IMG/VR virus record: IMGVR_UViG_3300033550_000032
Location: 1-25,603 of that record
Length of the DNA stretch: 25,603 nucleotides
From: a virus
Strand: one strand, 5' to 3'
Part shown: positions 5,078 to 25,603 of the stretch, in pieces
Layout: each line of letters opens with the position of its first letter
Position numbering within the stretch: the first letter of the stretch is position 1
Notes under the pieces: generated by a model
The model's database searches: none
Seen by the model: only the letters and a program-made list of their open reading frames with translations
Told to the model about the DNA's origin: nothing
Position numbers and translations under genes: made by a program

Positions 5078-5440
5078 ATGTGCGGCCCGGCCGTCGTCCC
5101 CCTCGTTACCGCTGGCATCGCCCTGGCTGGCCAGGTCTATTCGACCAACCAGCAGGAAAAGGCCCAGAACGCCGCCATCGACCGCGACCGCAAGGCGTTC
5201 GATGCGAGCCAGAAGACGCTTGCCGATGCCAACAAGGCACTGGCCAACGTCAACGAGGCCAAGGGCCGCACGCAGCAGGATCTGTCGGCTGCGGCTGGCA
5301 CGGGCACCAACAACCTCGGGTTCCAGAACCAGGGCAGCACGCTCCTGACTGGCTACCAGGGCGTGACCGATCCGCTCTCGCTGTCCGCGCGCCGGCTGTA
5401 CGGCGGCAACAAACCTACGACCCAACTGCTCGGAGCCTGA
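5078..5440 (+). CDS. Small virion-associated-like protein (MC...LLGA type)
   Basis: Hypothetical protein of 120 aa. It starts MCGPAVVPLVTAG with a short hydrophobic stretch (residues 5-20), then a charged, Ala/Gln-rich probable coiled coil (about 25-70), then a Gly/Asn-rich region with STLLTG and a C-terminal LLGA. The N-terminal layout resembles T7 gp14-type ejection proteins, including the gene at 14702 here, but it is shorter. The STLLTG and LLGA elements are shared with the next gene. It has a strong AAAGGAG ribosome binding site and is the first gene after motif copy 2, just before the portal. A minor head or portal-associated role is plausible; no function is assigned. Confidence 0.75.
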   Translation: MCGPAVVPLVTAGIALAGQVYSTNQQEKAQNAAIDRDRKAFDASQKTLADANKALANVNEAKGRTQQDLSAAAGTGTNNLGFQNQGSTLLTGYQGVTDPLSLSARRLYGGNKPTTQLLGA

Positions 5441-12174: not shown

Positions 12175-14231
12175 TGGCACAGATCCGCACGCTCGCCCGT
12201 TCCTTCGCCGGTGGGGAGATCAGCCCGGAGATGTTCGGGCGTATCGACCTGTCCAAGTTCCAGACCGGGCTCTCGCTGGCCCGCAACTTCGAGGTCCTGC
12301 CGCACGGACCGGCGCGCAACCGCGCGGGGTTCGCCTTCGTCAACACCACCAAGAACAGCGCGCAGCGCGCGCGGCTGATTCCGTTCAGTTTCAACACGCA
12401 GCAGACGTTTGCGCTGGAGTTCGGCCCCGGGTACATCCGCTTTCACACGCAGGGGGCCACGCTGGAATCGTCCCCGGGCGTGCCGTATGAAGTGGCCACG
12501 CCCTACGCCGAGGCGGATCTGTTCAACATCCACTACGTGCAATCGGCCGATGTGCTGACGCTGGTGCATCCGAACTACCCGCCCGCCGAGCTGCGCCGCC
12601 TCGGCGCGACGAACTGGCAATACACCGTCATCTCGTTCCAGCCTACCCTTCCCCCGCCGGCCGGGGTGGTGGCCGTCCCTACGGGTGTCGGCCCCACCAC
12701 CTACTATTACGCCGTCACGTCACTGGCGCCGGACTCGCTCGACGAGTCGGTGGCCAGCAGCCCGCTTGCGTCCGCAGTGAATGACCTGACCCTGGCCGGC
12801 AATTACAACGAGGTCTCCTGGGGCGCGGTGGCGGGTGCCATTCGCTATAACGTATACAAGATCCGCAACGGGGTGCTGGGCTACATCGGGCAGACCCCGA
12901 ACACGTCGTTCGTGGACGACAACATCGAGGCCGACACCTCGATCAGCCCGCCGAACGCCTCCAACCCGTTCGTGGGCGCCGGCAATTACCCGGCGGCTGT
13001 GTCGTATTTCGAGCAACGCCGCGTGTTCGCCGGCACGAACAACAAGCCCCAGACCGTGTGGGCCACGGTGTCGGGCACCGAACGGAACCTGAATCAGTCG
13101 TTGCCGGTGCAGGACGACGATGCCATCGTCTTCACGATCGCCGCGCGCGAGGTGAACAGCATCCGGCACCTGGTACCACTGACCAACCTGCTGCTGCTGA
13201 CGGCCAGCGCCGAGTGGCGCGTGCAGTCCACCGACTCCGGGGCGCTTACCCCGTCCACGATCAGCGCCCGGCCGCAGAGCTACATTGGCGCGAACCAGGT
13301 ACAGCCGCAGGTGGTGGGCAACCGCATCGTTTATCCGCGCGCGCGCGGCGGCCGGGTGAACGAACTGGCCTACAGCTTCGACGCGCAGGGCTATGTCACC
13401 AACGATCTGAGCCTGCTGGCGCAGCACCTGTTTGACGGGTTCAGCATCGTGGACATGGCGCTGCCCAAGGCACCGTACCAGTTCGCCTGGTTTGTGTCCT
13501 CGAACGGGGATCTGATTGGCCTGACCTACGTGCCCGAGCAACAGGTGGCCGGCTGGCACCACCACGACACCGGCATCGGGGATTCGTTCGAATCGGTGTG
13601 CTCGGTCGGCGAGGGCGACGAGGATGCGGTCTATGTCATCACACGGCGCACGATTGGCGGGCAGACGCGCCGTTTTGTCGAGCGCATGCACTCGCGCCGG
13701 TTCACCTCGCAAGCAGATTGTTTCTTCGTCGATTGCGGCGCCACGTACACCGGTGTTCCGACCAATACGGTGAGCGGGCTGGATTGGCTCAACGGCATGA
13801 CCGTGAATATCCTGGGCGACGGCGCGGTGTATCCGCAGCAGGTGGTCACCGGCGGCACGATCACGCTGGAGGCGCCCGCCATGTGCTCCACGATCACGGT
13901 GGGCCTGCCGATCACGGCGCAGATGCAGACGCTGCCGCTGGCATTTGAGACGCAGGCGTTCGGGCAAGGCCGGCAGAAGAACGTGAACAAGGTGTGGATG
14001 CGCGTGGTGGAGTCGGGTGCGGTGTTCGCCGGCCCGCGCTTCGACGCGCTCAAGGAAACCAAGACGCGCACCACCGAACCGTGGAATTCGCCGCCGTCCT
14101 TGCGGACGTGGCAGGCCGAACTGGTGCTGACCCCGAGCTGGCAGGCCGATGGCAGCGTGTGCATCGAGCAGACCTACCCGCTGCCGGTCACGATTGCGGC
14201 GATGACGATGGAGGTGTCGATTGGCGGGTAA
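12174..14231 (+). CDS. Tail tubular protein B-like (nozzle)
   Basis: A 685-aa protein resembling T7 gp12 and equivalent nozzle proteins, which form the hexameric end of the short tail. The conserved N-terminus is LARSFAGGEISPEMFGRIDL with RNFEVLPHGPARNRAGFAFV (about residues 5-50). An Ig-like or fibronectin-like insertion appears at about 160-255 (TYYYAVTSLAP ... NYNEVSWGAVAGAIRYNVYK). Later parts have YFEQRRVFAGTNNKPQTVW, LLTASAEWRV and YPRARGGRVNELAYSF. The start at 12174 is translationally coupled by TGATG to the adaptor gene; an upstream ATG at 12156 would add six residues not typical of the family. Confidence 0.88.
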   Translation: MAQIRTLARSFAGGEISPEMFGRIDLSKFQTGLSLARNFEVLPHGPARNRAGFAFVNTTKNSAQRARLIPFSFNTQQTFALEFGPGYIRFHTQGATLESSPGVPYEVATPYAEADLFNIHYVQSADVLTLVHPNYPPAELRRLGATNWQYTVISFQPTLPPPAGVVAVPTGVGPTTYYYAVTSLAPDSLDESVASSPLASAVNDLTLAGNYNEVSWGAVAGAIRYNVYKIRNGVLGYIGQTPNTSFVDDNIEADTSISPPNASNPFVGAGNYPAAVSYFEQRRVFAGTNNKPQTVWATVSGTERNLNQSLPVQDDDAIVFTIAAREVNSIRHLVPLTNLLLLTASAEWRVQSTDSGALTPSTISARPQSYIGANQVQPQVVGNRIVYPRARGGRVNELAYSFDAQGYVTNDLSLLAQHLFDGFSIVDMALPKAPYQFAWFVSSNGDLIGLTYVPEQQVAGWHHHDTGIGDSFESVCSVGEGDEDAVYVITRRTIGGQTRRFVERMHSRRFTSQADCFFVDCGATYTGVPTNTVSGLDWLNGMTVNILGDGAVYPQQVVTGGTITLEAPAMCSTITVGLPITAQMQTLPLAFETQAFGQGRQKNVNKVWMRVVESGAVFAGPRFDALKETKTRTTEPWNSPPSLRTWQAELVLTPSWQADGSVCIEQTYPLPVTIAAMTMEVSIGG

Positions 14232-14700
14232 CGTTGAGGTGCGCTGGCCCACCGAGCAGGATGTGCGGGATCTCGTGGCCGGCATGCGCGAAGCAGATCG
14301 CGCGGAACTGGAGGCGTCCATCGGACATGGTGTGGACGAAGCCGGGGCCATGGCCGATGTGGTAGCCCGCTCCTCCCACGCCTGGGCCATCATCGTGAAC
14401 GGGAAACTGGGCATGATCGGCGGCCTGTTCCCGATGGGCACGGTGCTCGGCGGCGATGAGGCGCAGCCCTGGATGATGGCCACGACCCACATGGAACGCG
14501 CCCCCGGTACGCTTATGAAGGTAGCTCTGCGATACCTTTCGGTCATGAAGCGGTGCTATCCTCGCTTGTCGAACCACGTGGACGCGAGAAATACCAAAAG
14601 TATCAGGTGGCTGCGCAGAATGGGCTTTACTGTGCACTCCCACACGGTTCCTTTTGGTCCGTACAGCATGCCGTTCCACCCATTTGAGATGAATAGCTAA
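14221..14700 (+). CDS. T7 gp13-like internal virion protein with GNAT-like fold
   Basis: A 159-aa protein at the position of T7 gene 13, between nozzle and gp14-like genes, with the features of gp13/acetyltransferase-like phage proteins: VRWPTEQDVRDLVAGMREAD, AWAIIVNGKLGMIGGLFPMG, and the C-terminal HVDARNTKSIRWLRRMGFTV, a GNAT-type helix-strand. Whether it binds acetyl-CoA cannot be seen; the classic Q/RxxGxG/A loop is not evident. It uses a TTG start with GGAGGTG four bases before, overlapping the nozzle gene by 11 bases. From about 14510 on, the codon use is more AT-rich than in its neighbours, suggesting recombination in the C-terminal half. Confidence 0.75.
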   Translation: MAGNVEVRWPTEQDVRDLVAGMREADRAELEASIGHGVDEAGAMADVVARSSHAWAIIVNGKLGMIGGLFPMGTVLGGDEAQPWMMATTHMERAPGTLMKVALRYLSVMKRCYPRLSNHVDARNTKSIRWLRRMGFTVHSHTVPFGPYSMPFHPFEMNS

Positions 14701-14701
14701 C

Positions 14702-15349
14702 ATGTGTTTCGCCAATATGGGCGGCGCGGGTGCCGCAACCTCGGGTTCCACGTCCCTCCTGGGAGGGGGTGGCGGGGCTACGGGCCTCATCGGCGCGGGC
14801 ATTAATGCCCTCGGACAGGCCAAATCGTCCGAGCTATCCGCCGCCGGTCAGAAAACCGAGCTGGCCAACCAAGCGTATGTGGCCAACATGAACGCCGCGC
14901 TGTCCGAACTGCAGGCGCAGGACGCGCTGCGGCAGGGCACGCTGGCCGGGCTGGACGTGCGCCAGCGCGCGAAGCAGGTCAAGGGCGCCCAGCGCGCCGC
15001 GTTCGCCGCCAACGGCGTGAAGGTGGATGAGGGCTCGCCGGCAGCCGTGCAGCGCTCGACCGAGTATCTGCGCGACGTGGACGTGGCCACGCTCGCCAAC
15101 AACGCCGCGCGCGCCGCGTTCGGTTACCGCGTGCAGAAGGCCAACCAGCAGGCCCGGGGCGGCGCCTATGCCGCTGGCGCTGACCAGATCAGCCCGGGCG
15201 GCGCGGCGGCCACGTCCCTCCTGACTTCTGCCCCATCCATCGCCGAGAAGTGGTATCGCCTGTACGGCGCACAGGGCATCCCGCCGGCAGCATCCGGTGG
15301 TGGCCGTGGCACCTACGTCAGCGATTTTGCCTACCCGGATTCGGAGTAA
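14702..15349 (+). CDS. Internal virion/ejection protein, T7 gp14-like
   Basis: A 215-aa protein like T7 gp14, an ejection protein placed in the outer membrane during infection. It starts MCFANMGGAG followed by a Gly-rich hydrophobic stretch (residues 1-40), then a long Ala/Gln-rich helical part (about 45-170; LANQAYVANMNAALSELQAQ, LAGLDVRQRAKQVKGAQRAA) and a short C-terminal region ending YVSDFAYPDSE. The Met-Cys start is shared with T7 gp14 and with the small proteins at 5078 and 5478. It follows the gp13-like gene by one base and precedes the transglycosylase gene by three, so it belongs to the ejection operon. Confidence 0.8.
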   Translation: MCFANMGGAGAATSGSTSLLGGGGGATGLIGAGINALGQAKSSELSAAGQKTELANQAYVANMNAALSELQAQDALRQGTLAGLDVRQRAKQVKGAQRAAFAANGVKVDEGSPAAVQRSTEYLRDVDVATLANNAARAAFGYRVQKANQQARGGAYAAGADQISPGGAAATSLLTSAPSIAEKWYRLYGAQGIPPAASGGGRGTYVSDFAYPDSE

Positions 15350-15352
15350 CAG

Positions 15353-17491
15353 ATGGCCCGCGTTCCTACGCAAGACGCCCCGACCGTCGCCCGGCAAGGG
15401 CTGCCCAACGCGCAGTTCGACGCCGCACCCGACATCGCCGGCCAAGTCGCCGCGCGCCAGACGGCGCAGATCGACCGCGCCACCGGCGCGCTGGTCGATA
15501 CCGGATTCAAGATCCAGGCCGACCTGCTCGACCAGGCCAACCAGTTGCGCGTGGACGATGCGCTCAACCAGGCGCGCGAACAGGCCGCCCGGCTCACATA
15601 TGACAAGTCGGCCGGCTACACCAACCTGAAGGGCAAGGACGCGCTGGAACGGCCGGACGGCAAGGCGCTGTCGGACGAATACGGCGGCACGCTCACGCAA
15701 TCCCTTTCCGGGATCGCCTCGACGCTGGGCAATGACCGGCAGCGCGCACTGTTCGCACAGCGCACCGCGCCGCTGGTGCAGGGGTTCCGCGACCGGATCA
15801 TGCAGCACGAGAATAACGAGTTTCGCACCTACGCGACCTCGGTGCGCGAGGGCACGATCCAGAACCAGCTCGACGAGATCGGGCGCAACTACAGCAACCC
15901 GCAAGCCATCGACGAGTCGGTCAATTCGATCCGCGCCGCCACTTTCGACATTGCCAAAATGCAGGGCAAGTCGGCCGAATGGGCCGAGGCGCAGGCGCGC
16001 AGGATGACCAGCAACGCGCATTTCACCGCGATCAGTGCTGCACTGCAAAACAACGATCCGCTGTATGCCGACCAGTACATGAAAAAGTACGCGGAGCAGA
16101 TGGACGCGAACGACATCCTGCGCGCGAACGGGCTGATCACCAAGGAGGTGGACGCCAAAATCGGGCAGGCCGCCGGGACGCAGGCTATGGTCAGCGTGCA
16201 GTCGAGCATGGCCCCGACTGACTTTGGCCGCCTCACCAACCTGGTGATGGGGCAGGAATCGGGCGGCCGGCGCTATGGCGCCGACGGCAAGCTGCTGGAA
16301 TCGCCCAAAGGCGCGAAGGGCGAGATGCAGGTGCTCGACAGCACCAACAAAAACCCGGGTTTCGGCGTGCGGCCAGCGGCCGACGACAGCCCCGACGAGC
16401 GCGCGCGGGTGGGCCGCGACTACCTGCAGACCATGCTGCAGAAGTACGGCGGCAACGTGAATCAGGGCCTGGCCGCCTACAACGCTGGCCCCGGCGCAGT
16501 GGACTCGGCGATCCGCGAGGCGAACAAGAATGGCACGCCCGCGCAGTGGCTCAACTACCTGCCCAAGGAAACGCAGAACTACGTGGCCAGCATCTCGCGC
16601 AGCTACAGCAGCGGGGGTGGCACGCCGTCACGGCCGACGCTGGAGGACGTGCACAACCGCGTGCGCGAGACGCTCGGCCCGAACGCGAGCCCGGACCGGC
16701 TGCGCATCGCGCTGGAAACCAGCACCCGCCAGTACACCGAGCAGACGGCCGCGATCAAGCAGCGCGAGGACCAGGCGCTGGAGAACGCGCAGCGCGCGCT
16801 GATCGAGAACGGCGGCAATTTCGCGGCGCTGCCCAACGACGTGCGCGCGGCGATCCCGCCGGGCAAGTTCGACGACGTGATGAACTTCGCCGGCAAGCTG
16901 GCCGCCGGCGTACCGATTCGCACGAACTGGGATCTGTACTACAGCCTCAAGCGTGATCCGCAGGTGCTGGCCGGCACGAACCTTGGCTCCTATCGGGATA
17001 AGTTGAGCGACACCGAATTCAAGCAGCTGGTGAACGAGCAGCAGGATCTGCGCCAGGGCAAGACTGACGACCTGACACGCCTGCGAAATGGAAAGGAAAT
17101 CCTCAACCAGTTCATGCGCGAGGCCGGCATCGACCCCACCCCGAAAGACAGCGACAAGACGGGCGCGGCCACGGTTGGCCGGATCTGGAATGCGTTCGAG
17201 CAGCGCGTGCGCGAGCGCGAGGCATCCACCGGCAAGAAGTTGTCGCCCGAGGAGATGAAGCCGATCGCGGCGCAGATTTTCACGTCCGTGGAAGTCAACC
17301 GCCCCTTCTGGTTCGACCAGAAGACTGTGGCCGGCGCGGTCGCCCCGGGCCAGCGCGTGGTGGTGCCCAAGGAAGACCGGGCGCTGATCGAGCAGGCCCT
17401 GCGCGCACGCGGCCGCAAGCCTACCGACGACCTGATCGAGCAGATGTACCGCCAACACAAGGGCATCGCCCCCCTCGCAAACAATGGCTGA
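15353..17491 (+). CDS. Ejection protein with lytic transglycosylase domain
   Basis: A 712-aa internal virion protein that should cut peptidoglycan during DNA ejection, comparable to the transglycosylase of T7 gp16. Residues 1-285 are mainly helical (EQAARLTYDKSAGYTNLKGK, SEWAEAQARRMTSNAHFTAI). Residues about 290-425 are an SLT domain: LVMGQESGG with the probable catalytic E302, GEMQVLD, AAYNAGPGAVD (about 373-383) and YLPKETQNYVASI. The C-terminal 280 residues are helical and charged. GGAG lies before the ATG. The gene's last eight bases overlap the start of the giant gene that follows, so the two are probably translated together. Confidence 0.87.
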   Translation: MARVPTQDAPTVARQGLPNAQFDAAPDIAGQVAARQTAQIDRATGALVDTGFKIQADLLDQANQLRVDDALNQAREQAARLTYDKSAGYTNLKGKDALERPDGKALSDEYGGTLTQSLSGIASTLGNDRQRALFAQRTAPLVQGFRDRIMQHENNEFRTYATSVREGTIQNQLDEIGRNYSNPQAIDESVNSIRAATFDIAKMQGKSAEWAEAQARRMTSNAHFTAISAALQNNDPLYADQYMKKYAEQMDANDILRANGLITKEVDAKIGQAAGTQAMVSVQSSMAPTDFGRLTNLVMGQESGGRRYGADGKLLESPKGAKGEMQVLDSTNKNPGFGVRPAADDSPDERARVGRDYLQTMLQKYGGNVNQGLAAYNAGPGAVDSAIREANKNGTPAQWLNYLPKETQNYVASISRSYSSGGGTPSRPTLEDVHNRVRETLGPNASPDRLRIALETSTRQYTEQTAAIKQREDQALENAQRALIENGGNFAALPNDVRAAIPPGKFDDVMNFAGKLAAGVPIRTNWDLYYSLKRDPQVLAGTNLGSYRDKLSDTEFKQLVNEQQDLRQGKTDDLTRLRNGKEILNQFMREAGIDPTPKDSDKTGAATVGRIWNAFEQRVREREASTGKKLSPEEMKPIAAQIFTSVEVNRPFWFDQKTVAGAVAPGQRVVVPKEDRALIEQALRARGRKPTDDLIEQMYRQHKGIAPLANNG

Positions 17492-20400
17492 TTCGAACCC
17501 GTACCTGTCGCTGGTCCCCTCAGACGATCCCGCCCCGCCGGCGGCCGACGCGACGCAGCAGGCGCTCACCCCCACGCAGCCGCAGGCCAATCCGTACCTT
17601 GCGGTGGTCGATAGCGGTGGCGTGGGCACGCCCGCGCGCATGGCCATGATGCAGGTGGCCGGCACGAACCCGGACGTGGAGGCGCGCATCCAGGCGCTGG
17701 GCAAGCAGTACGGCGTGCCGGCCGAGGCCGTGCGCCTGCAACAACCAGACTATGAGCGCCGATCAACGATTGACGGGATTGATTACGCCAAACTGGCGCA
17801 GGAATCGCCGGCCACGTCGGGCCTGCTGCAGCAGCCGGCCACGGCCGGCATCAGCTACGACGACACCGAGAACCTGAGCGCGATCGAGCGCGCGGTGCGC
17901 TTCCTGGCCGGTACCGGCTCGGCCGCGCTGTCGGCGGTGCCCGCGATCACGTCCGGCTTCTACGGCGTGGTGCAGGCCGGCGCCGAGGGCGCGGCGATGC
18001 TGGCCGAACCGCTGGCCGGCACGATCCTGCCCGAGAACCCGTTCGCGCGCGTCGCGCGCGGCGTGGCCGACTGGCGCCGCGAGCAGGACGCCATTGCCAA
18101 GGGCATGGTGCCCAAGGGGGAGGGGCCGCTTTCGACCGGCTTCTACTCGGGCGTGCAATCCGCTGCACAGACCGGCGCCGCGCTGCTGACCGGCAACCCG
18201 GCCGCCACACTCGGTGCGCTGTCGGCGGTGCAGGGTGGCCAGTCCTACGGTCAGGCGCGCGACAAGGGCATCGCCCCGCTGCAGGCCGCCGCGTTCGGCG
18301 CCTCGCAGGCGGCGATCGAGTACGCCACTGAGAAAATCCCGGTGTCGCGCTTCCTGTCCGACTTCAAGGCAGGCACCCCGTTTTACAGTCTGGTGGCGCG
18401 CCAGATGGCTGCCGAGATCCCGGGCGAACAGGTGGCGACCGCGCTGCAAGACCTGAACGAATGGGCGGTGCTGAACCCGGAGAAGCCGTTCACGTCGTAT
18501 CTGCAGGACCGCCCGAGCGCTGCCGCCACCACGCTGGTGGCCACGATCACCTCGGTGGGTGCGCTGACGGGCGCCGCGCGCGGCGCGCAGGCTGTCGCCA
18601 ACCGCATGCGGGACCGCGAGCAGCAGGCCGCGCAGGCGCAGGCCAATGGTGCGGCGCTGGAGCAGACCGACCAGCTCGCCGCCGCGAACCTCATGCGCCC
18701 GCGTGACGCGGCCACGTTCAACGATTTCATCCGGCAGGCCACCGCCGACGGCCCCGTGCAGGACGTGTACATCGACGTGCCGAGCCTGGCACAGTCCGGC
18801 GTGGACGTGGCGGCGCTGGCCGCCGTGTCGCCGGCGGTAGCGGCGCAACTGCCCGAGGCCACGGCCACCGGCGGCACGATCCGCATCCCGCTGGATGAGT
18901 TCACGACCAACGTGGCCGGGACCGACCTGTCTGCGCCGCTGATCCCGTACCTGAAGACCGACCCGCTGGGCATGAACCAGAAGGAGGCCGAGGAGTTCAT
19001 GCAGTCCGGCGCCGACCAGTTCCAGGCGGAAGTCGAGCGCACGCTCGCCGCGCAGGCGCCGGACGAGGCATTCAAGCAGTCGCGCGACGCGGTGCAGGCG
19101 CGCATCGCCGGCGAACTGGATACGGTCAACCGCTTCACCCCGGCCGTAAACCAGAACTACGCCACGCTGATGGCGAACTTCTACGCGGTGCAGGGTGCGC
19201 GCCTCGGTATCACGCCGGAAGAGATGGCCGCCCGCTACCCGATCCGCTTTGCGCGCGAGGATTTGATCGACGGCGAGCAGCGCCTGGACGAGCATGCACA
19301 AAAAAGCGATACCGGAAAACAGGTATCGCTTACAGCGGACCAAGCCCGACAACAGGTGCTTACCGACACGGAATGGCTCGGAAGTGGCAGCACATCCGCC
19401 GCACTCGGCGGTCGGTGGGCCGCTAATAGTAACTTCATCAAAACGATCCGAAACGGCGATCAGGAAGTCGGGGAAGTGTATGGCGAAGAAGTGCCGGATG
19501 CAGTCATCGTATCGGAATCCCACGTCAACCCCGATCAGCAGGGTAAGGGGCTGGCGCGACAGGCGTACGAGCAGTTAGCGCAATATGCTTTGGCGCAGGG
19601 CAAGGTCTTGCGTAGCGATAGCGCTGTGTCCGAGCAGGCGGCGCAGGTCTATAAGTCGCTGGGCCGGCGCGGCTACACCGTTGAGAAGAACCCGGCCGCA
19701 GTGCTGGAGAATGGCCGCTGGCAGTCCCCGGACAACGCGCCCGTGTTCACTGTATCGGGTACGCCTGCGGTACAACAGGCGCAACAAGTCGACGAGGACA
19801 CCGGCCTACCGCTGAATGCTGACGGAACGGTCACGGTCTACCACCATACCAGTGCGGCCAACGCGGAACGGATTCGGCAGACCGGACGGCTCAAGTCGGC
19901 GGCGGAGCCCGATGTCTACGTGACCACGCGGGCGGAAACCGACACCGGCTACGGCGACACCGTCGTAGCTATCAACGTCGACCCGGCGCTGCTGCAGATC
20001 GACGACGAATTCCCGGACGGGCGCACCGATTACCGCATCGACACTGGCAAGCCGGGCGGCGCAATCCCGGTCAAGTTTCCCGATCAGGTGCGACAGGGCG
20101 AACGTGGCAGCCTGACCGTCCCGGCCGACATCACGCAACAGGCGCCGATCCTGACCCTGCTGGAGAACGCGGACCTGTCCACGTTCCTGCATGAGTCCGG
20201 CCACTTCTACCTGGAGGTGATGTCCGATCTCGCCGCGCGCCCCGATGCGCCGCAGGAGATCCGCGACGACATGGACGCGGTGCTGAATTGGTTTGGCGTG
20301 CCCGATCTCGCCACGTGGCGCGGCATGACGCTGAACGAGCGCCGCGAGCAACACGAGCAGTTCGCGCGCGGCTTCGAGGCGTATCTGTTCGAGGGCAAGT

Positions 20401-23400
20401 CCCCGAGTCAGGAACTGCGACCGGTGTTCCAGCGCTTCCGCGCCTGGCTGGTCAACGTCTATCGCACGCTGGCGCGCCTGAATGTGCAGCTCACCGACGA
20501 GGTGCGCAGCGTGTTCGACCGCATGCTGGCCACGTCCGATGCCATCGCCGAACAGCGTATTCTCGAAGGCGCCATGCCGCTGTTCGAGACGAAGCCACCG
20601 AACATGACGGACGCCGAGTGGACCGGCTACCAGAACCTGAACAACGAGGCGCAGCAGGATGCCCTGCAGACGCTGGAAACGCGCAGCATGCGCGACATGA
20701 AGTGGCTGAACAATGCCCGCAGCCGCGTGCTGAAAGATCTGCAGAAACAGGCCGACAGCGCCCGCGCGCAGGTGCGCAGCGAGGTGGAGGCGGATGTCTA
20801 CGCCACGCCGCTGTACGGCGCCATGCAGTTCCTGCGCCGGGGCACGACCACGGTCAACGGCGAGGCGATCGAGGCCGACGGCAACCATAAGCTGGACATC
20901 GACGCGCTGGCCAACATGTACGGCGGGGAGGGCGACCAGTTCGCGCTGCTCGACTGGAGCAAACTGGGCTACGGCCGCTATGGCATGTTGGGCAAGGAAG
21001 GCATCCACCCGGACACGGCTGCCCAGATGTTCGGCTACACCTCGGGCGACCAGCTGGTGCGCGCGCTGCTCGACGCCGAGCCGGTGGATTCCGTCATCGA
21101 GGGCCTGACCGACGCGCGTATGCTGGAGCGCCACGGCGATCTGACCGACGCGCGCGCCATGTCGCGCGCGGCCGACGAGGCGATCCATAACGACGCCCGC
21201 GCCCGGTTCGTCGCCACGGAACTGAACGCTCTGAACCAGGCCACCGGCCAGCGCAAGATCCTGGCCAGCGCCGCGCGCCAGTTCGCCGACGCCATGATCG
21301 CGCGTCTGCGCGTGCGCGACGTACGCCCGAGCCAGTACACCTCGGCTGAGGGGCGCGCCGCGCGCGCGTCCGAGAAGGCGTTCAAGGCCGGCGACATCGA
21401 GACGGCAGCGCTGGAGAAGCGCAACCAGCTCGTGAACACCTACGCGGCCAAGGCGGCGTATGCGGCGCAGAACGAGATCGCCAGGGGCGTCGACTACCTG
21501 AAGAAGTTCGGCAAGGAATCGACGCGCAAGAGCATCGACCCGAGCTACATCGAGCAGATCGACGGCCTGCTGGAGCGCTACGACCTGCGCACCGGGCAGA
21601 GCCTGCGCGCGATCGACAAGCGCAAGAGCCTGGCCGACTGGGTGAAGGCGCAGGAGGAGCAGGGCCTGGAGCCGGTGATCGACCCGGCGCTGCTGAACGA
21701 AGCCTCGCGCCAGTCCTACAAGGACATGACGGTGGAGGAGCTGCGCGGGCTGGTGGACGCCGTGCGCAACATCGAACACCTGGGGCGCCTGAAGAAGAAG
21801 CTGCTGACCGCCAAAGATCAGCGCGATTTCGAGGAGGCCGCCGGCGCGATCACCGCCAGCATCGAGCAGCACGCCAAGCGCGTGGTGCCCGAGGAGCGCT
21901 CATCCGATCGCGGGCCGCTGGTCAATATCCGCCGCATGTTCAAGGGCTTCACGGCCGAACACCGCAAGTTCGCCAGCATCGTGCGCCAGTTCGACGGTTG
22001 GGAGGACGCCGGCCCGGCGTGGGAATACCTCGTGCGCACGATGAACGACGCGGGCGACTACGAGGCCGTCGAGAACGAGCGCGCCACGAAGAAGCTGGAC
22101 GAACTGCTGCGCCCGATCCTGAAGGACAAGGCGCTGCACCGCAAACAGTTCTTCCCGGAAATTGGCAAGTCGTTTACCAAGGAGGAGCGCCTGGGCATCG
22201 CCCTGAACATGGGCAACGCAGTGAACCGCGAGCGCGTCATGTCCGGCGAGCAACTGAGCAATGCGCAGCTGAACAGCCTGCTCGATACGCTGACCGAGCA
22301 GGACTGGAAATTCGTCCAGGGTGTGTGGGATTACCTCGACTCGTTCCGCCCGGCCATCGCCGCGAAGGAACGCCGCCTGACCGGGCTCGAACCGCAGTGG
22401 GTGGAGGCAGAGCCGGTGCAGACCAGGTTCGGCGAACTGAAGGGCGGGTATTTCCCGATTGCGTACGACCCCTACCGCAGCACGCGGTCGGAAGCGGACG
22501 TGGCGTCCGAGGTGCAGCGCCAGATGGAGCGCGGCCTGTACACCCGTGCGCAGACCCGGCGCGGCCACCTGAAGGCGCGCGCGGAGTCCACCGGCCGGCC
22601 GCTGCGCTACGATCTGGGCGTCGTCACCGGCCACGTGCAGCAGGTCATCCACGACCTGGCATGGCACGAGTACCTGGTGGACGCGAACCGGCTGCTGCGC
22701 AACGGCGGCGTGGACACTGCCGTGCGCCAGCACTACGGCGGCCAGTTCATGACGCAACTGCGCGACACGCTCAAGGATGTGGCCGTGGGCGAGGTGGCTA
22801 CCGACGGCTGGGTGGGCAAGATCCTCAACCACCTGCGTGTAGGCTCGACCATCGCGGGCCTGGGCTACCGGCTTACCACGTCGCTGATGCAGCCCCTCGG
22901 GCTCACGCAGAGCGCGGTGCGCATCGGCTCGAAATGGGTGCTCAAGGGCGCCAGCCACTGGGCCGCCGGTACGGTCGGGCTGGAGAAGGGCATGGCCGAC
23001 ATGTACGAGATGTCGGGCTTCATGCGCCTGCGCTCGCGCACCATGCAGCGCGAGATCAACGAGATCCAGAACCGGGTCAGCGGCAAATCGGAATTCCGTC
23101 AGAAGGTGGACGCCTCCTATTTCTACCTGATCCAGAAGGCGCAGCTGATCGCGGACGTGCCGACGTGGTGGGGCGCCTACGAGAAGGCCATGTCGCAAAA
23201 CGACATGACCGAGGACAAGGCGATCGCACTGGCCGACCAGGCGGTGCGGGACTCGCAGGGCGGCGGCCAGATCGGCGACCTCGCAGCGATCCAGCGCGGT
23301 GGCCCGTTTAAGAAGCTGTGGACGAATTTCTACTCGTTCTTTTCGACCACCTACAACCTGACCGTGGAGGCCGTGGACCGCACTGACTTCAAAAAGTCGC

Positions 23401-23849
23401 GCGACGTGGCGGCACTGGCCGTGGACCTGGCGCTGCTCTACACTATCCCGGCCATCCTCGGCACGATCGTGAAGTCGGCGCTGCACGGCGGCCCAGACGA
23501 TGACGACGAGTTCATCCGCTCGCTTATCGCCGACCAGCTGAACTACCTGTTCGGCACGGTGGTGGGGCTGCGCGAAGTGGCCGCCGCCGTGCAGGGCGCC
23601 ACGGGTCTGTACAGCGACTACGGCGGCCCGGGCGGCGCGCGGTTCTTCGGCGAGCTGGCCAAGCTGGGCAAGCAGGCGGCGCAGGGCGAGGCCGACGAGG
23701 CGTTCTTCAAGGCCATGAACAGCACAGCCGGCATCCTGTTTCACTACCCTGCCGGGCAGATCAACGCCACGGTGCAGGGCCTGAGCGCGCTGGCCGACGG
23801 CAAGACCGAGAACCCCGGCGCTATCCTAGTGGGCGCGCCGCCGAAGTGA
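17484..23849 (+). CDS. Giant polyvalent ejection protein (GNAT-, ART- and metallopeptidase-like segments)
   Basis: A 2121-aa protein likely packed in the virion and injected with the DNA. The N-terminus repeats NPYL (5-8, 36-39), then has a Gly/Ala-rich hydrophobic region (about 135-280). Residues about 610-750 look like a GNAT acetyltransferase, with the CoA-loop pattern QQGKGLARQAY (about 685-695) and YKSLGRRGYTV. Residues about 783-855 (VTVYHHTSAANAERI, YVTTRAETDTGYGDTV) resemble ADP-ribosyltransferase domains of polyvalent proteins. A zincin motif HESGH is at 903-907, with the downstream FARGFEAYLFEGKSPS acidic segment. The next thousand residues are helical, without recognised motifs. 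A membrane-like segment lies near 1980-2003. There is no Shine-Dalgarno sequence; the start overlaps the preceding stop. Domain calls are from motifs only. Confidence 0.82.
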   Translation: MADSNPYLSLVPSDDPAPPAADATQQALTPTQPQANPYLAVVDSGGVGTPARMAMMQVAGTNPDVEARIQALGKQYGVPAEAVRLQQPDYERRSTIDGIDYAKLAQESPATSGLLQQPATAGISYDDTENLSAIERAVRFLAGTGSAALSAVPAITSGFYGVVQAGAEGAAMLAEPLAGTILPENPFARVARGVADWRREQDAIAKGMVPKGEGPLSTGFYSGVQSAAQTGAALLTGNPAATLGALSAVQGGQSYGQARDKGIAPLQAAAFGASQAAIEYATEKIPVSRFLSDFKAGTPFYSLVARQMAAEIPGEQVATALQDLNEWAVLNPEKPFTSYLQDRPSAAATTLVATITSVGALTGAARGAQAVANRMRDREQQAAQAQANGAALEQTDQLAAANLMRPRDAATFNDFIRQATADGPVQDVYIDVPSLAQSGVDVAALAAVSPAVAAQLPEATATGGTIRIPLDEFTTNVAGTDLSAPLIPYLKTDPLGMNQKEAEEFMQSGADQFQAEVERTLAAQAPDEAFKQSRDAVQARIAGELDTVNRFTPAVNQNYATLMANFYAVQGARLGITPEEMAARYPIRFAREDLIDGEQRLDEHAQKSDTGKQVSLTADQARQQVLTDTEWLGSGSTSAALGGRWAANSNFIKTIRNGDQEVGEVYGEEVPDAVIVSESHVNPDQQGKGLARQAYEQLAQYALAQGKVLRSDSAVSEQAAQVYKSLGRRGYTVEKNPAAVLENGRWQSPDNAPVFTVSGTPAVQQAQQVDEDTGLPLNADGTVTVYHHTSAANAERIRQTGRLKSAAEPDVYVTTRAETDTGYGDTVVAINVDPALLQIDDEFPDGRTDYRIDTGKPGGAIPVKFPDQVRQGERGSLTVPADITQQAPILTLLENADLSTFLHESGHFYLEVMSDLAARPDAPQEIRDDMDAVLNWFGVPDLATWRGMTLNERREQHEQFARGFEAYLFEGKSPSQELRPVFQRFRAWLVNVYRTLARLNVQLTDEVRSVFDRMLATSDAIAEQRILEGAMPLFETKPPNMTDAEWTGYQNLNNEAQQDALQTLETRSMRDMKWLNNARSRVLKDLQKQADSARAQVRSEVEADVYATPLYGAMQFLRRGTTTVNGEAIEADGNHKLDIDALANMYGGEGDQFALLDWSKLGYGRYGMLGKEGIHPDTAAQMFGYTSGDQLVRALLDAEPVDSVIEGLTDARMLERHGDLTDARAMSRAADEAIHNDARARFVATELNALNQATGQRKILASAARQFADAMIARLRVRDVRPSQYTSAEGRAARASEKAFKAGDIETAALEKRNQLVNTYAAKAAYAAQNEIARGVDYLKKFGKESTRKSIDPSYIEQIDGLLERYDLRTGQSLRAIDKRKSLADWVKAQEEQGLEPVIDPALLNEASRQSYKDMTVEELRGLVDAVRNIEHLGRLKKKLLTAKDQRDFEEAAGAITASIEQHAKRVVPEERSSDRGPLVNIRRMFKGFTAEHRKFASIVRQFDGWEDAGPAWEYLVRTMNDAGDYEAVENERATKKLDELLRPILKDKALHRKQFFPEIGKSFTKEERLGIALNMGNAVNRERVMSGEQLSNAQLNSLLDTLTEQDWKFVQGVWDYLDSFRPAIAAKERRLTGLEPQWVEAEPVQTRFGELKGGYFPIAYDPYRSTRSEADVASEVQRQMERGLYTRAQTRRGHLKARAESTGRPLRYDLGVVTGHVQQVIHDLAWHEYLVDANRLLRNGGVDTAVRQHYGGQFMTQLRDTLKDVAVGEVATDGWVGKILNHLRVGSTIAGLGYRLTTSLMQPLGLTQSAVRIGSKWVLKGASHWAAGTVGLEKGMADMYEMSGFMRLRSRTMQREINEIQNRVSGKSEFRQKVDASYFYLIQKAQLIADVPTWWGAYEKAMSQNDMTEDKAIALADQAVRDSQGGGQIGDLAAIQRGGPFKKLWTNFYSFFSTTYNLTVEAVDRTDFKKSRDVAALAVDLALLYTIPAILGTIVKSALHGGPDDDDEFIRSLIADQLNYLFGTVVGLREVAAAVQGATGLYSDYGGPGGARFFGELAKLGKQAAQGEADEAFFKAMNSTAGILFHYPAGQINATVQGLSALADGKTENPGAILVGAPPK
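19304..19331 (+). repeat. Perfect 10-bp hairpin inside the giant gene
   Basis: AAGCGATACC (19304-19313) pairs perfectly with GGTATCGCTT (19322-19331) around GGAAAACA, preceded by an A-run. It marks the left edge of a segment with lower G+C and less biased codons, containing the GNAT-like domain. The hairpin is within codons about 607-616 and may be a relic of a terminator or an insertion junction. Confidence 0.55.
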
Positions 23850-24053: not shown

Positions 24054-25603
24054 GTGACCATTTCGAGCGAAAATCGCAAAGCCGGGCCCTACAACGGGAA
24101 CGGTGTCACTACCTCTTTCCCGTTCTCCTTCAAGGTGTTCAAGGAGGAGGACGTACTCGTCACTCGTACCGACACCAACGGCGCCGACATCGAGCTGACC
24201 CTTGATAGCCAGTATAGCGTCAGCCTGAACAGCAACCAGGACAACAACCCGGGCGGCACCGTTGTCTATCCGCGCGTGGGCAGTGGTCTGTCCAATCTCA
24301 GCGCCGGCGAGAAACTGACCCTGACGGGCGACCTCGCCTACACCCAGCCGACCGACCTGCCGAACCCGGGGCCGTTCTTCGCCGATGTGGTCGAAGCCGC
24401 GTTCGACCGGGCCGAAATCCAGATCCAGCAGGTCAAGGAGATTACCGACCGCTCGATCAAAATTAGCGTGTCGGACACCCCGCTCACGCCGCTGCCGGCG
24501 CAGAGCGCCCGCGCCAACACGGTAATCGGCTTTGATGCCACCGGCAACGTGACCGTGCTGCCGATTCCATCCTCGCTGGGTGCGGGGGATCGCATTCCAT
24601 ACACCCTGGTTTCCGGGGTCGATTTCCTCCCGGGCGACACCTTCGTAACACTGCCCCGGCCGCCGGGCGCTTCGGGCAACCTTGAAGTGCATTTCGACGG
24701 GGTTGCGCAGGAGTTCGGTGAGTGGTCGGTGGCCGGTTCCACCCTGACATTCACCAGTCCGATCCCGGCATACGTCACTGAAATCTGGGGCTACATCGGC
24801 ACTACGCTGTCCACGCAGATCCCGCCGATTGATTCAGTGGGAGACGCCCAATTGACGTGGGGGACGATCCTCTCGCGCGGGGCCGACTCGATCGCCGAGC
24901 TGAGGACACTCAGCAGCTCGCGCTACGCGCGCGCCTACGTGGCCGGCTACTACACACCCGGTGACGGCGGCGGCGGGCACTATTACTACGACGCATCTGA
25001 TACAACGAGCGCCGACAACGGTGGCACGGTGATCGTAGCGACCAATGGCGCCCGGTGGAAACTGATCCACCAGGGGTCCGTCAGCGTGCGCCAGTTCGGC
25101 GCCAAGGGCGACGGTGTGACCGACGATACGGCGGCATTTCAGCGCGCGATTGATGCATTGGTCGGCGCCCGCCTGTTCATCCCTCGCGGCACGCCCATCG
25201 GCGGGCCGACGTTCTTCGACAACCCCTACATCATCTCTGCCCCGCTTGTGCTGAACAGCACGTCCGGCGGTCACTATCTCTACGGGGAGGGCTACCGCTG
25301 GGATAACAACTGGGGCGCAGTCGGCGGCTCGCTGGTGAAGAACACGAATGCGGCCGCCGGCCATGCATTCGTGGTGTCGGCAGGCAAAAATGGGCTCAAC
25401 GTCTTCACCGATTTCGGCATCCTAGGCAATGGCCTGGACGGCGACGGCATCAACGGCACCGACCTGTACAACACCCACATCGACAAGATGCTCATCACCG
25501 GGCAGGGCGGGTATTGCGTACGTCTCATCGAGTCGTTCAATTCTCGCGTTTTCCGCTGCCTGATCGGCAACACGAAGAAGACCGGCCTCTACCTCAACGG
25601 CCT
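24054..25603 (+). CDS. Tail fibre/tailspike protein (partial, runs off the right end)
   Basis: Receptor-binding protein; 516 codons are present and open to the edge. The start is GTG 24054, as an in-frame TAA lies at 24030-24032 and no ATG falls between. Residues about 1-140 resemble the T7 gp17-type tail attachment domain (GPYNGNGVTTSFPFSFKV, DNNPGGTVVYP, PTDLPNPGPFFADVVEAAFD). A linker of beta segments follows (about 180-260). Residues from about 343 begin a pectate-lyase-3 type beta-helix (VRQFGAKGDGVTDDTAAFQR), which is common in tailspikes that cleave or bind capsule or O-antigen. Catalytic residues would lie beyond the window or cannot be named. Motif copy 4 and a 15-bp hairpin precede it, so it is probably its own transcription unit. 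Confidence 0.85.
   Translation, partial: MTISSENRKAGPYNGNGVTTSFPFSFKVFKEEDVLVTRTDTNGADIELTLDSQYSVSLNSNQDNNPGGTVVYPRVGSGLSNLSAGEKLTLTGDLAYTQPTDLPNPGPFFADVVEAAFDRAEIQIQQVKEITDRSIKISVSDTPLTPLPAQSARANTVIGFDATGNVTVLPIPSSLGAGDRIPYTLVSGVDFLPGDTFVTLPRPPGASGNLEVHFDGVAQEFGEWSVAGSTLTFTSPIPAYVTEIWGYIGTTLSTQIPPIDSVGDAQLTWGTILSRGADSIAELRTLSSSRYARAYVAGYYTPGDGGGGHYYYDASDTTSADNGGTVIVATNGARWKLIHQGSVSVRQFGAKGDGVTDDTAAFQRAIDALVGARLFIPRGTPIGGPTFFDNPYIISAPLVLNSTSGGHYLYGEGYRWDNNWGAVGGSLVKNTNAAAGHAFVVSAGKNGLNVFTDFGILGNGLDGDGINGTDLYNTHIDKMLITGQGGYCVRLIESFNSRVFRCLIGNTKKTGLYLNG

Follow-up and report, generated by a model that had tools for sequence, protein, structure and literature searches.

A probable large ejection protein of a BPP-1-like podovirus with GNAT and ART-like modules in an exchangeable slot

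Polyvalent proteins of phages, as described by Iyer et al. (2017; PMC5512222), include a (pro)phage GNAT family whose typical neighbour in the same polypeptide is an ADP-ribosyltransferase (ART), and their commonest domain is an HEXXH metallopeptidase (MPTase). Here we present a protein of 2121 amino acids (aa) encoded in the stretch IMGVR_UViG_3300033550_000032 of IMG/VR, positions 1 to 25,603, a 25.6-kb podovirus fragment which we call the window. The protein has LPD22, the MPTase (zincin), GNAT with ART and the late-gene context in common with the proteins of Iyer et al., and the combination of GNAT, ART and zincin, which a preliminary description of the window took as possibly new, was already known from that work. 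Polyvalent proteins, GNAT beside ART, MPTases with proposed autoproteolysis and ejection proteins bearing enzymes (N4, phiC725A_54) are all on record. A slot at one fixed place of a constant scaffold for ejection, the peptide delimiters and the empty form belong to the family of the window protein and were not found in the passages of PMC5512222 consulted; together with the exchange statistics they appear new against the literature passages and searches covered.

The homologues in BPP-1 (Bbp10), Rauchvirus and phrog_9880 have the same scaffold, zincin and gene position as the window protein. The cargo of Bbp10 (183 aa) is unrelated and did not match the 295-aa cargo of the window in any of the BLAST pairs found. 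T7 gp16 resembles the window protein in its operon position, its helical C part and its hydrophobic regions at both ends. It is not known to have a zincin or a cargo slot. The transglycosylase domain of gp16 is found in the window on the upstream protein, and sequence similarity to gp16 was undetectable. The IVP-D internal virion proteins (phiRIO-1, Hardies et al. 2016; phiC725A_54) are, as here, large ejection proteins with a variable central enzyme. Domains destined for the cytoplasm were reportedly noted in such proteins by Hardies et al. The centre of phiC725A_54 is methylase-like, and a connection between its matching domain and the C-terminal domain in N4 gp50 has been drawn (PMC5217972). 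The N4 virion RNA polymerase (vRNAP) gp50 and DEV gp71, like the window protein, have in this order a helical N part, an enzyme, HEXXH and a long C part; both are injected, and DEV gp71 has been assigned as the gp16 equivalent with its enzyme projected through the inner membrane (PMC10925440). Their cargo is an RNA polymerase, whereas no polymerase family, T7-like RNA polymerases included, was found in the window cargo, just GNAT and the ART-like module. Their zincin and C part had no detectable sequence homology to the window protein (hhalign Prob 2.5). With eight schitovirus C-terminal parts, hidden Markov models and hhalign yielded only an HExxH match, at the correct place but without significance, and therefore we do not claim N4 membership. 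T4 Alt and the T4 internal proteins compare with our reading in that an ART is packaged and injected and propeptides are cut by the prohead protease (PMC5694885), but they are separate small proteins, not modules of an ejection machine, and their ART is of the R-S-E type.

The window protein is probably a large ejection protein of the T7 gp16 type from a BPP-1-like podovirus, serving as a carrier with an exchangeable effector slot. Constant blocks were defined by iterated profiles and could be delimited in 87 proteins out of about 100 relatives. There were three of them, an N scaffold, the zincin and a C scaffold, and the slot is the interval between the first two. In the window the parts are placed as follows.

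17484..23849, + strand: the 2121-aa probable large ejection/polyvalent protein, homologue of Bbp10 of BPP-1 (phrog_9880), a single open reading frame (ORF)
17628..19265, + strand: N scaffold, residues 49-594, helical and conserved, with LPD22 at residues 53-140 and hydrophobic helices at about 137-365
19266..20102, + strand: cargo slot, residues 595-873, ending just before the invariant R874
20151..20708, + strand: zincin (MPTase) domain, residues 890-1075, with HESGH at 903-907; E958 and E965, both invariant, are candidates for the third ligand
20985..23834, + strand: C scaffold, residues 1168-2117, helical and of constant length, about 1474-1871 weakly matching gp16-type core proteins
23415..23471, + strand: conserved hydrophobic helix, residues 1978-1996, a possible membrane segment

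The ORF is real and undivided as originally drawn; it starts with ATG and overlaps the stop of the preceding gene by 8 bp. Its C-terminal half had been taken for a helical region devoid of motifs that might hide further domains. It is helical, but far from being empty it is better conserved than any other part of the protein, and the idea of further effector domains there is not supported. It forms a conserved scaffold whose length is nearly constant (970 ± 24 aa in the relatives). The N scaffold measures 562 ± 75 aa. Slots ranged from 31 to 1689 aa with a median of 437 aa, and nearly empty ones (21-36 aa) occurred in phages and prophages that appear intact. When 84 cargos were screened with Pfam, 33 contained ART-PolyVal, seven each PBECR5 and DUF7178, and four to six each of several GNAT families. 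Rarer components were PBECR3 and MuF_C (four each) and LPD3 (three), while GGDEF, RelA_SpoT, Pol-beta and others were met singly. Cargos of at least 1500 aa (L085, L091 and others) mostly gave no Pfam match except for DUF7178 or an ART domain; such very long cargos probably hold undescribed effector domains.

The exchange of cargo was evident in both directions. Among 21 pairs with 85-99.9% identical zincin and C scaffold, some of which have members in common, the shared part fell short of half the longer cargo in 17. In one of these comparisons (L064 and L065) the zincin and C scaffold were 98.8% identical, while the cargos of 414 and 913 aa had 4% in common at 70% identity or more. In the opposite direction, IMG contig L001 has a window-type ART 77% identical to that of L100, whose scaffolds are just 39% (C) and 23% (N) identical to those of L001; the cargo order in this comparison was ART-GNAT, versus GNAT-ART in the window. 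Overall, modules were transferred between distant phages at 65-77% identity. As judged from the sequences, cargo and scaffold evolve apart. The GNAT and ART of the window sit in a hypervariable slot whose contents are swapped among phages, a circumstance overlooked in the preliminary description, and the window protein is an ordinary family member with a moderately rare cargo.

The assignment to ejection proteins is based on homology, position and predicted structure. The protein matched phrog_9880 with 1572 bits, and its best named relative, with 46.5% identity across 86% of the query, was Bbp10 from the Bordetella phage BPP-1. Further named relatives came from phages of Caulobacter, Vibrio, Pseudomonas, Xanthomonas, Acinetobacter, Cobetia and cyanobacteria, and in BPP-1 and the Caulobacter, Vibrio, Pseudomonas and Xanthomonas phages the homologues lie at the same genome place. 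Bbp10-type homologues are annotated just as "crystallin beta/gamma motif" or hypothetical, and NCBIfam gave no match for the window protein. A scan of bacterial and archaeal genomes placed the family in many contigs, mostly of Pseudomonadota, which are probably prophages. Altogether the family is present at more than 570 loci. LPD22 was recognized by Pfam at 4e-18 (65.8 bits, cut-off 28.6), and with LPD22, zincin and GNAT in a single large polypeptide, and a gene among late virion genes, the earlier designation as a polyvalent protein holds. One relative, Limnohabitans phage DC33 (L012, PQ492659.1), is filed under Inoviridae, yet has a 39-kb genome with a podovirus ejection-protein region, and the taxonomy of this record looks wrong.

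The gene follows genes of the gp14/gp15 type and precedes the tail fibre gene, which is the place of gp16 in T7. The model of residues 1-1160 had a predicted local distance difference test score (pLDDT) above 90 through most of 370-590 and 880-1000, the cargo being poor, and that of residues 960-2121 had pLDDT 82 and was almost entirely helical. Outside the zincin, the N-half model matched helical bundles or gave weak matches. Against the PDB, the best matches of the C-half model included the ejection-core proteins of phiM1 (8vb2_A, Z 6.2, 238 residues aligned, root-mean-square deviation (rmsd) 8.9), T7 (9jyy_I, Z 5.9, 236 aligned, rmsd 5.0) and E1004 (9vvp_W, Z 5.9, 266 aligned, rmsd 10.4), Z values that are low for helical proteins. 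All three aligned to one common stretch of the C scaffold. Membrane transporters scored similarly, on a different stretch, and since the values are low as well we regard the gp16 matches as support and not as proof. With the C scaffold as query, a viral structure library returned, besides close relatives, remote proteins from predicted myo- and siphoviruses that bear the labels ART-PolyVal, nuclease or acetyltransferase, which suggests, at the level of models, that the carrier module (window 20361-23846) is not limited to podoviruses. Hydrophobic peaks were found at 137-365 and at 1978, the latter strongest and conserved.

The edges of the slot are marked by a short peptide, [F/L]-x-Q, counted as [F/L/Y/M]-x-Q with F or L usual. 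It occurred 71 times in the N flanks of the slot versus 30.6 ± 4.6 in shuffled sequences and 64 times in the C flanks versus 17.3 ± 3.5, and its density at the slot edges was 32-44 per 1000 positions versus 10 in the scaffolds. In a hold-out set of genome contigs the motif was present in 34 of 44 N flanks (14.5 when shuffled) and 38 of 44 C flanks (8.2), and none of 1000 shuffles attained either 34 or 38, although flanks are related by descent and thus are not independent trials. Short slots (67 aa or less, n = 14) had exactly one motif in nine cases, close before a conserved RG (e.g., GANALDQEARG); of two which scored zero, one carried VDQ (SVDQAARG) and the other could not be read. Thirty full ART-PolyVal modules in cargos were preceded by the motif within 35 aa in 26 cases and followed by it within 40 aa in 29, and inside such modules it was depleted (4.4 per 1000). 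The codons of the motif vary freely, two motifs of one gene having mostly 5-7 of 9 bases alike, and the constraint is therefore on the peptide; a DNA recombination site is rejected on the same grounds. A site also used on the capsid was considered too, but the BPP-1 major capsid protein appears uncleaved (PMC3863775). In the window both delimiters deviate from the usual form.

19284..19292, + strand: degenerate N-side delimiter L-D-E (601-603), by direct reading, where relatives have [F/L]-x-Q
20088..20096, + strand: C-side delimiter V-R-Q (869-871), before the invariant R874; V-N-Q in the relative L001

Whether the motif is a protease site concerns one step of our explanation, and the alternative, that it is a structural linker or else the conserved edge of a domain, is evenly balanced against it. 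Several ART-type modules end in a strand FDPxxPxILxQ, so that part of the signal is indeed a domain edge. The linker does not readily account for a motif that flanks unrelated modules on both sides, marks both slot edges, stands single in empty slots, is depleted inside ART domains and is kept at the level of the peptide and not of the codon. In form it is similar to motifs of prohead proteases, such as AXE/SXE, which have x-E at their end (PMC5694885).

Next to the slot lies the zincin. HExxH was present in 100 of 100 relatives scanned, which confirms the HESGH first noted at 903-907, and R874, H903, E904, H907, E958 and E965 (window numbering) never varied in an alignment of 53 sequences. 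The model was most similar to the zincin domains of lethal factor (1j7n_B, with Z 7.0, thus below 8, 173 residues aligned and rmsd 4.6); Iyer et al. made the lethal-factor comparison also for the N4 MPTase (PMC5512222). We regard it as a zincin domain with invariant HExxH and a downstream Glu helix, of putative proteolytic activity. In four relatives (L041, L046, L082, L107) roughly 160-300 additional residues split the zincin profile between its HExxH part and its Glu-helix part, and in such relatives the zincin may itself accommodate a second slot for cargo; variable inserts at this interval are mentioned in PMC5512222.

Two modules were recognized in the cargo of the window.

19437..19688, + strand: GNAT acetyltransferase core, residues 652-735, with the CoA-loop motif QQGKGLA
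19800..20090, + strand: ART-like module, residues 773-869 (TGLPLNADGTVTVYHHTS...IDDEFPDGR)

The GNAT-like segment is present as proposed earlier, with its core at 652-735 instead of 610-750. Acetyltransf_1 (PF00583) reached 22.9 bits versus a cut-off of 20.7 when the cargo was scanned alone, and 19.7 bits on the whole protein. Iterated profiles placed it near the GNATs of other slots. The CoA-binding loop Q/R-x-x-G-x-G/A, here QQGKGLA, was variable among the aligned GNATs. The cargo model had a pLDDT of about 28-69 and weak structural matches to EctA (E 1.5-3). With the window GNAT and ART as queries nothing was found in named phages, so close copies would be rare outside metagenomic phages.

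The ART-like segment was also rightly located at first, at 773-869, but no family reached its threshold and the fold was predicted with pLDDT 40-71. In 34 sequences H787, H788, D840, D841 and E842 were invariant and Y812 nearly so; these match the H-Y-D pattern given for polyvalent ARTs and the HYD clade (PMC5512222), in which H, Y and D/E would lie on strands 1, 2 and 5. No match to Pfam ART-PolyVal (PF18760) was obtained at E ≤ 1 in the window, and hhalign gave Prob 9.6. The weak matches were to DUF7002 in the window itself and, in relatives, to PTS_2-RNA (E 0.018-0.15, best in three relatives) and Tox-ART-HYD1 (0.062). This formal support is weak; we call the module ART-like, a plausible placement, and not a member of ART-PolyVal. 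The segments are not due to chance, since with the ART module as sole query 125 viral relatives were found. An ART-only search of the viral collection gave 80 loci, 70 of them in a window-type scaffold, and where both flanks were present the module was always situated between the N scaffold and the zincin. The window-type module (TGLPLN...DDEFPDGR) also occurs as a solo protein of 113 aa (L154, L157, L166) and in large proteins lacking the window-type scaffold, for instance L171 (3696 aa). Being without a named family, it may deserve one of its own.

A segment of another fold, or an RNA-directed ART relative of the Tpt1/KptA type in place of a protein ADP-ribosyltransferase, is rather unlikely. 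The three relatives with PTS_2-RNA as top weak match, the low hhalign value and the low-confidence predicted fold point that way. With the exceptions of NYN_YacP and of DUF7002, which could not be placed, however, all weak matches are to models of the ART superfamily on one and the same YHHT stretch, and the H..Y..D/E pattern suits the HYD clade (PMC5512222).

In the mechanism which we propose, the N scaffold, zincin and C scaffold would form a constant machine carried in the virion and injected. The hydrophobic helices near both ends would insert in the inner membrane with the middle on the cytoplasmic side, as in T7 gp16, where membrane regions at 243-410 and 1119-1290 leave the intervening part in the host cytoplasm (PMC8954989). 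The peaks at 137-365 and 1978 parallel transmembrane helices I and II of gp16, only that at 1978 being strong, and by this parallel the slot and zincin would be cytoplasmic. The putative GNAT and ART-like enzymes in the slot would both be delivered to the host cytoplasm along with the first DNA and would modify proteins there. Phages swap the cargo modules as units delimited by [F/L]-x-Q, and the adjacent zincin or another virion protease, for which the phrog_458 protease is a candidate, may cut at the delimiters to set them free. By analogy with DEV gp71, the enzymes would be presented or released at DNA entry. Autoproteolysis of such MPTases has been proposed on general grounds by Iyer et al. 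(PMC5512222). The complete scheme, an interchangeable delivery polyprotein in which unrelated effectors bounded by [F/L]-x-Q share one slot, are ejected and are freed in the host by the zincin, we put forward only tentatively, at clearly less than even weight. Under this scheme any phage of a widespread group could acquire another counter-defence enzyme through the addition of a single delimited cassette.

Several results weigh against our reading. Sequence searches of solved structures with the whole protein, the zincin profile, the C scaffold and the ART gave no significant match; the gp16 matches, with Z about 6, are under the safe level for helical proteins; the cargo fold is predicted with low confidence; and both delimiters of the window, LDE and VRQ, are degenerate. 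Furthermore, PMC5512222 notes packaging in uncut form for N4 vRNAP, an analogue bearing an MPTase, and processing for P1 DdrB; the former weakens the case for an obligatory cleavage before ejection.

It is improbable that the cargo serves to poison rival bacteria or phages, following the logic of polymorphic toxins, and does not help the phage's own infection. MuF toxins (PMC5576092) are phage proteins with variable effector domains too, and some families are common to both; ART, BECR nucleases and MuF_C are also present in polymorphic toxins (PMC5512222, PMC5576092). In MuF toxins, however, the variable part is the C-terminus and immunity genes are present, whereas the window family has an internal slot, a constant C scaffold and no immunity gene. 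The 204-bp gap between the 2121-aa gene and the tail fibre gene contains no immunity-type ORF, no recognizable immunity gene came after the homologue in the annotated relatives examined, and the gene is in the position of an ejection protein. Slightly more improbable still is a tolerant surface loop which collects passenger domains of little function while the scaffold does the essential job, as the nearly empty slots of apparently intact phages and prophages would permit, given that the cargo is strongly skewed to effector-type enzymes, the catalytic-type residues of the ART module are invariant and modules pass between distant phages with their sequences preserved to the extent given above.

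If the carrier with an exchangeable slot is the right reading, a class of unnamed phage proteins of 2000-3700 aa becomes readable, with a scaffold that delivers and a slot that holds the weapon. Injected effectors would then be found by a simple rule, as whatever sits between the N scaffold and HExxH, yielding hundreds of candidate early counter-defence enzymes, unassigned ones included. The family would also offer a natural model for protein delivery to bacteria. As the [F/L]-x-Q junctions predict cut sites, the role of the zincin in polyvalent proteins would become directly testable.

The remainder of the window has the gene order primase/helicase, terminase subunits, connector (phrog_332), Bbp19-like protein, protease (phrog_458) and major head protein, followed by tail tubes A and B, a gp14-like internal virion protein, the transglycosylase protein, the 2121-aa gene and the tail fibre. 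The nearest neighbours are listed here.

14702..15349, + strand: T7 gp14-like internal virion protein, T7_gp14 of Pfam above cut-off
15353..17491, + strand: virion lytic transglycosylase (SLT), directly upstream
24054..25603, + strand: tail fibre/spike gene, directly downstream, cut by the window end

Upstream of the gp14-like gene, an ORF of 159 aa (window 14221-14700) gave weak matches to T7 gp13 (E 0.003) and to the GNAT domain Acetyltransf_3 (E 0.006). Another ORF of 120 aa, in the interval between terminase and connector (5078-5440), matched the T7_gp14 internal virion protein family with 29.1 bits (cut-off 27), in addition to the gp14-like gene at 14702-15349.

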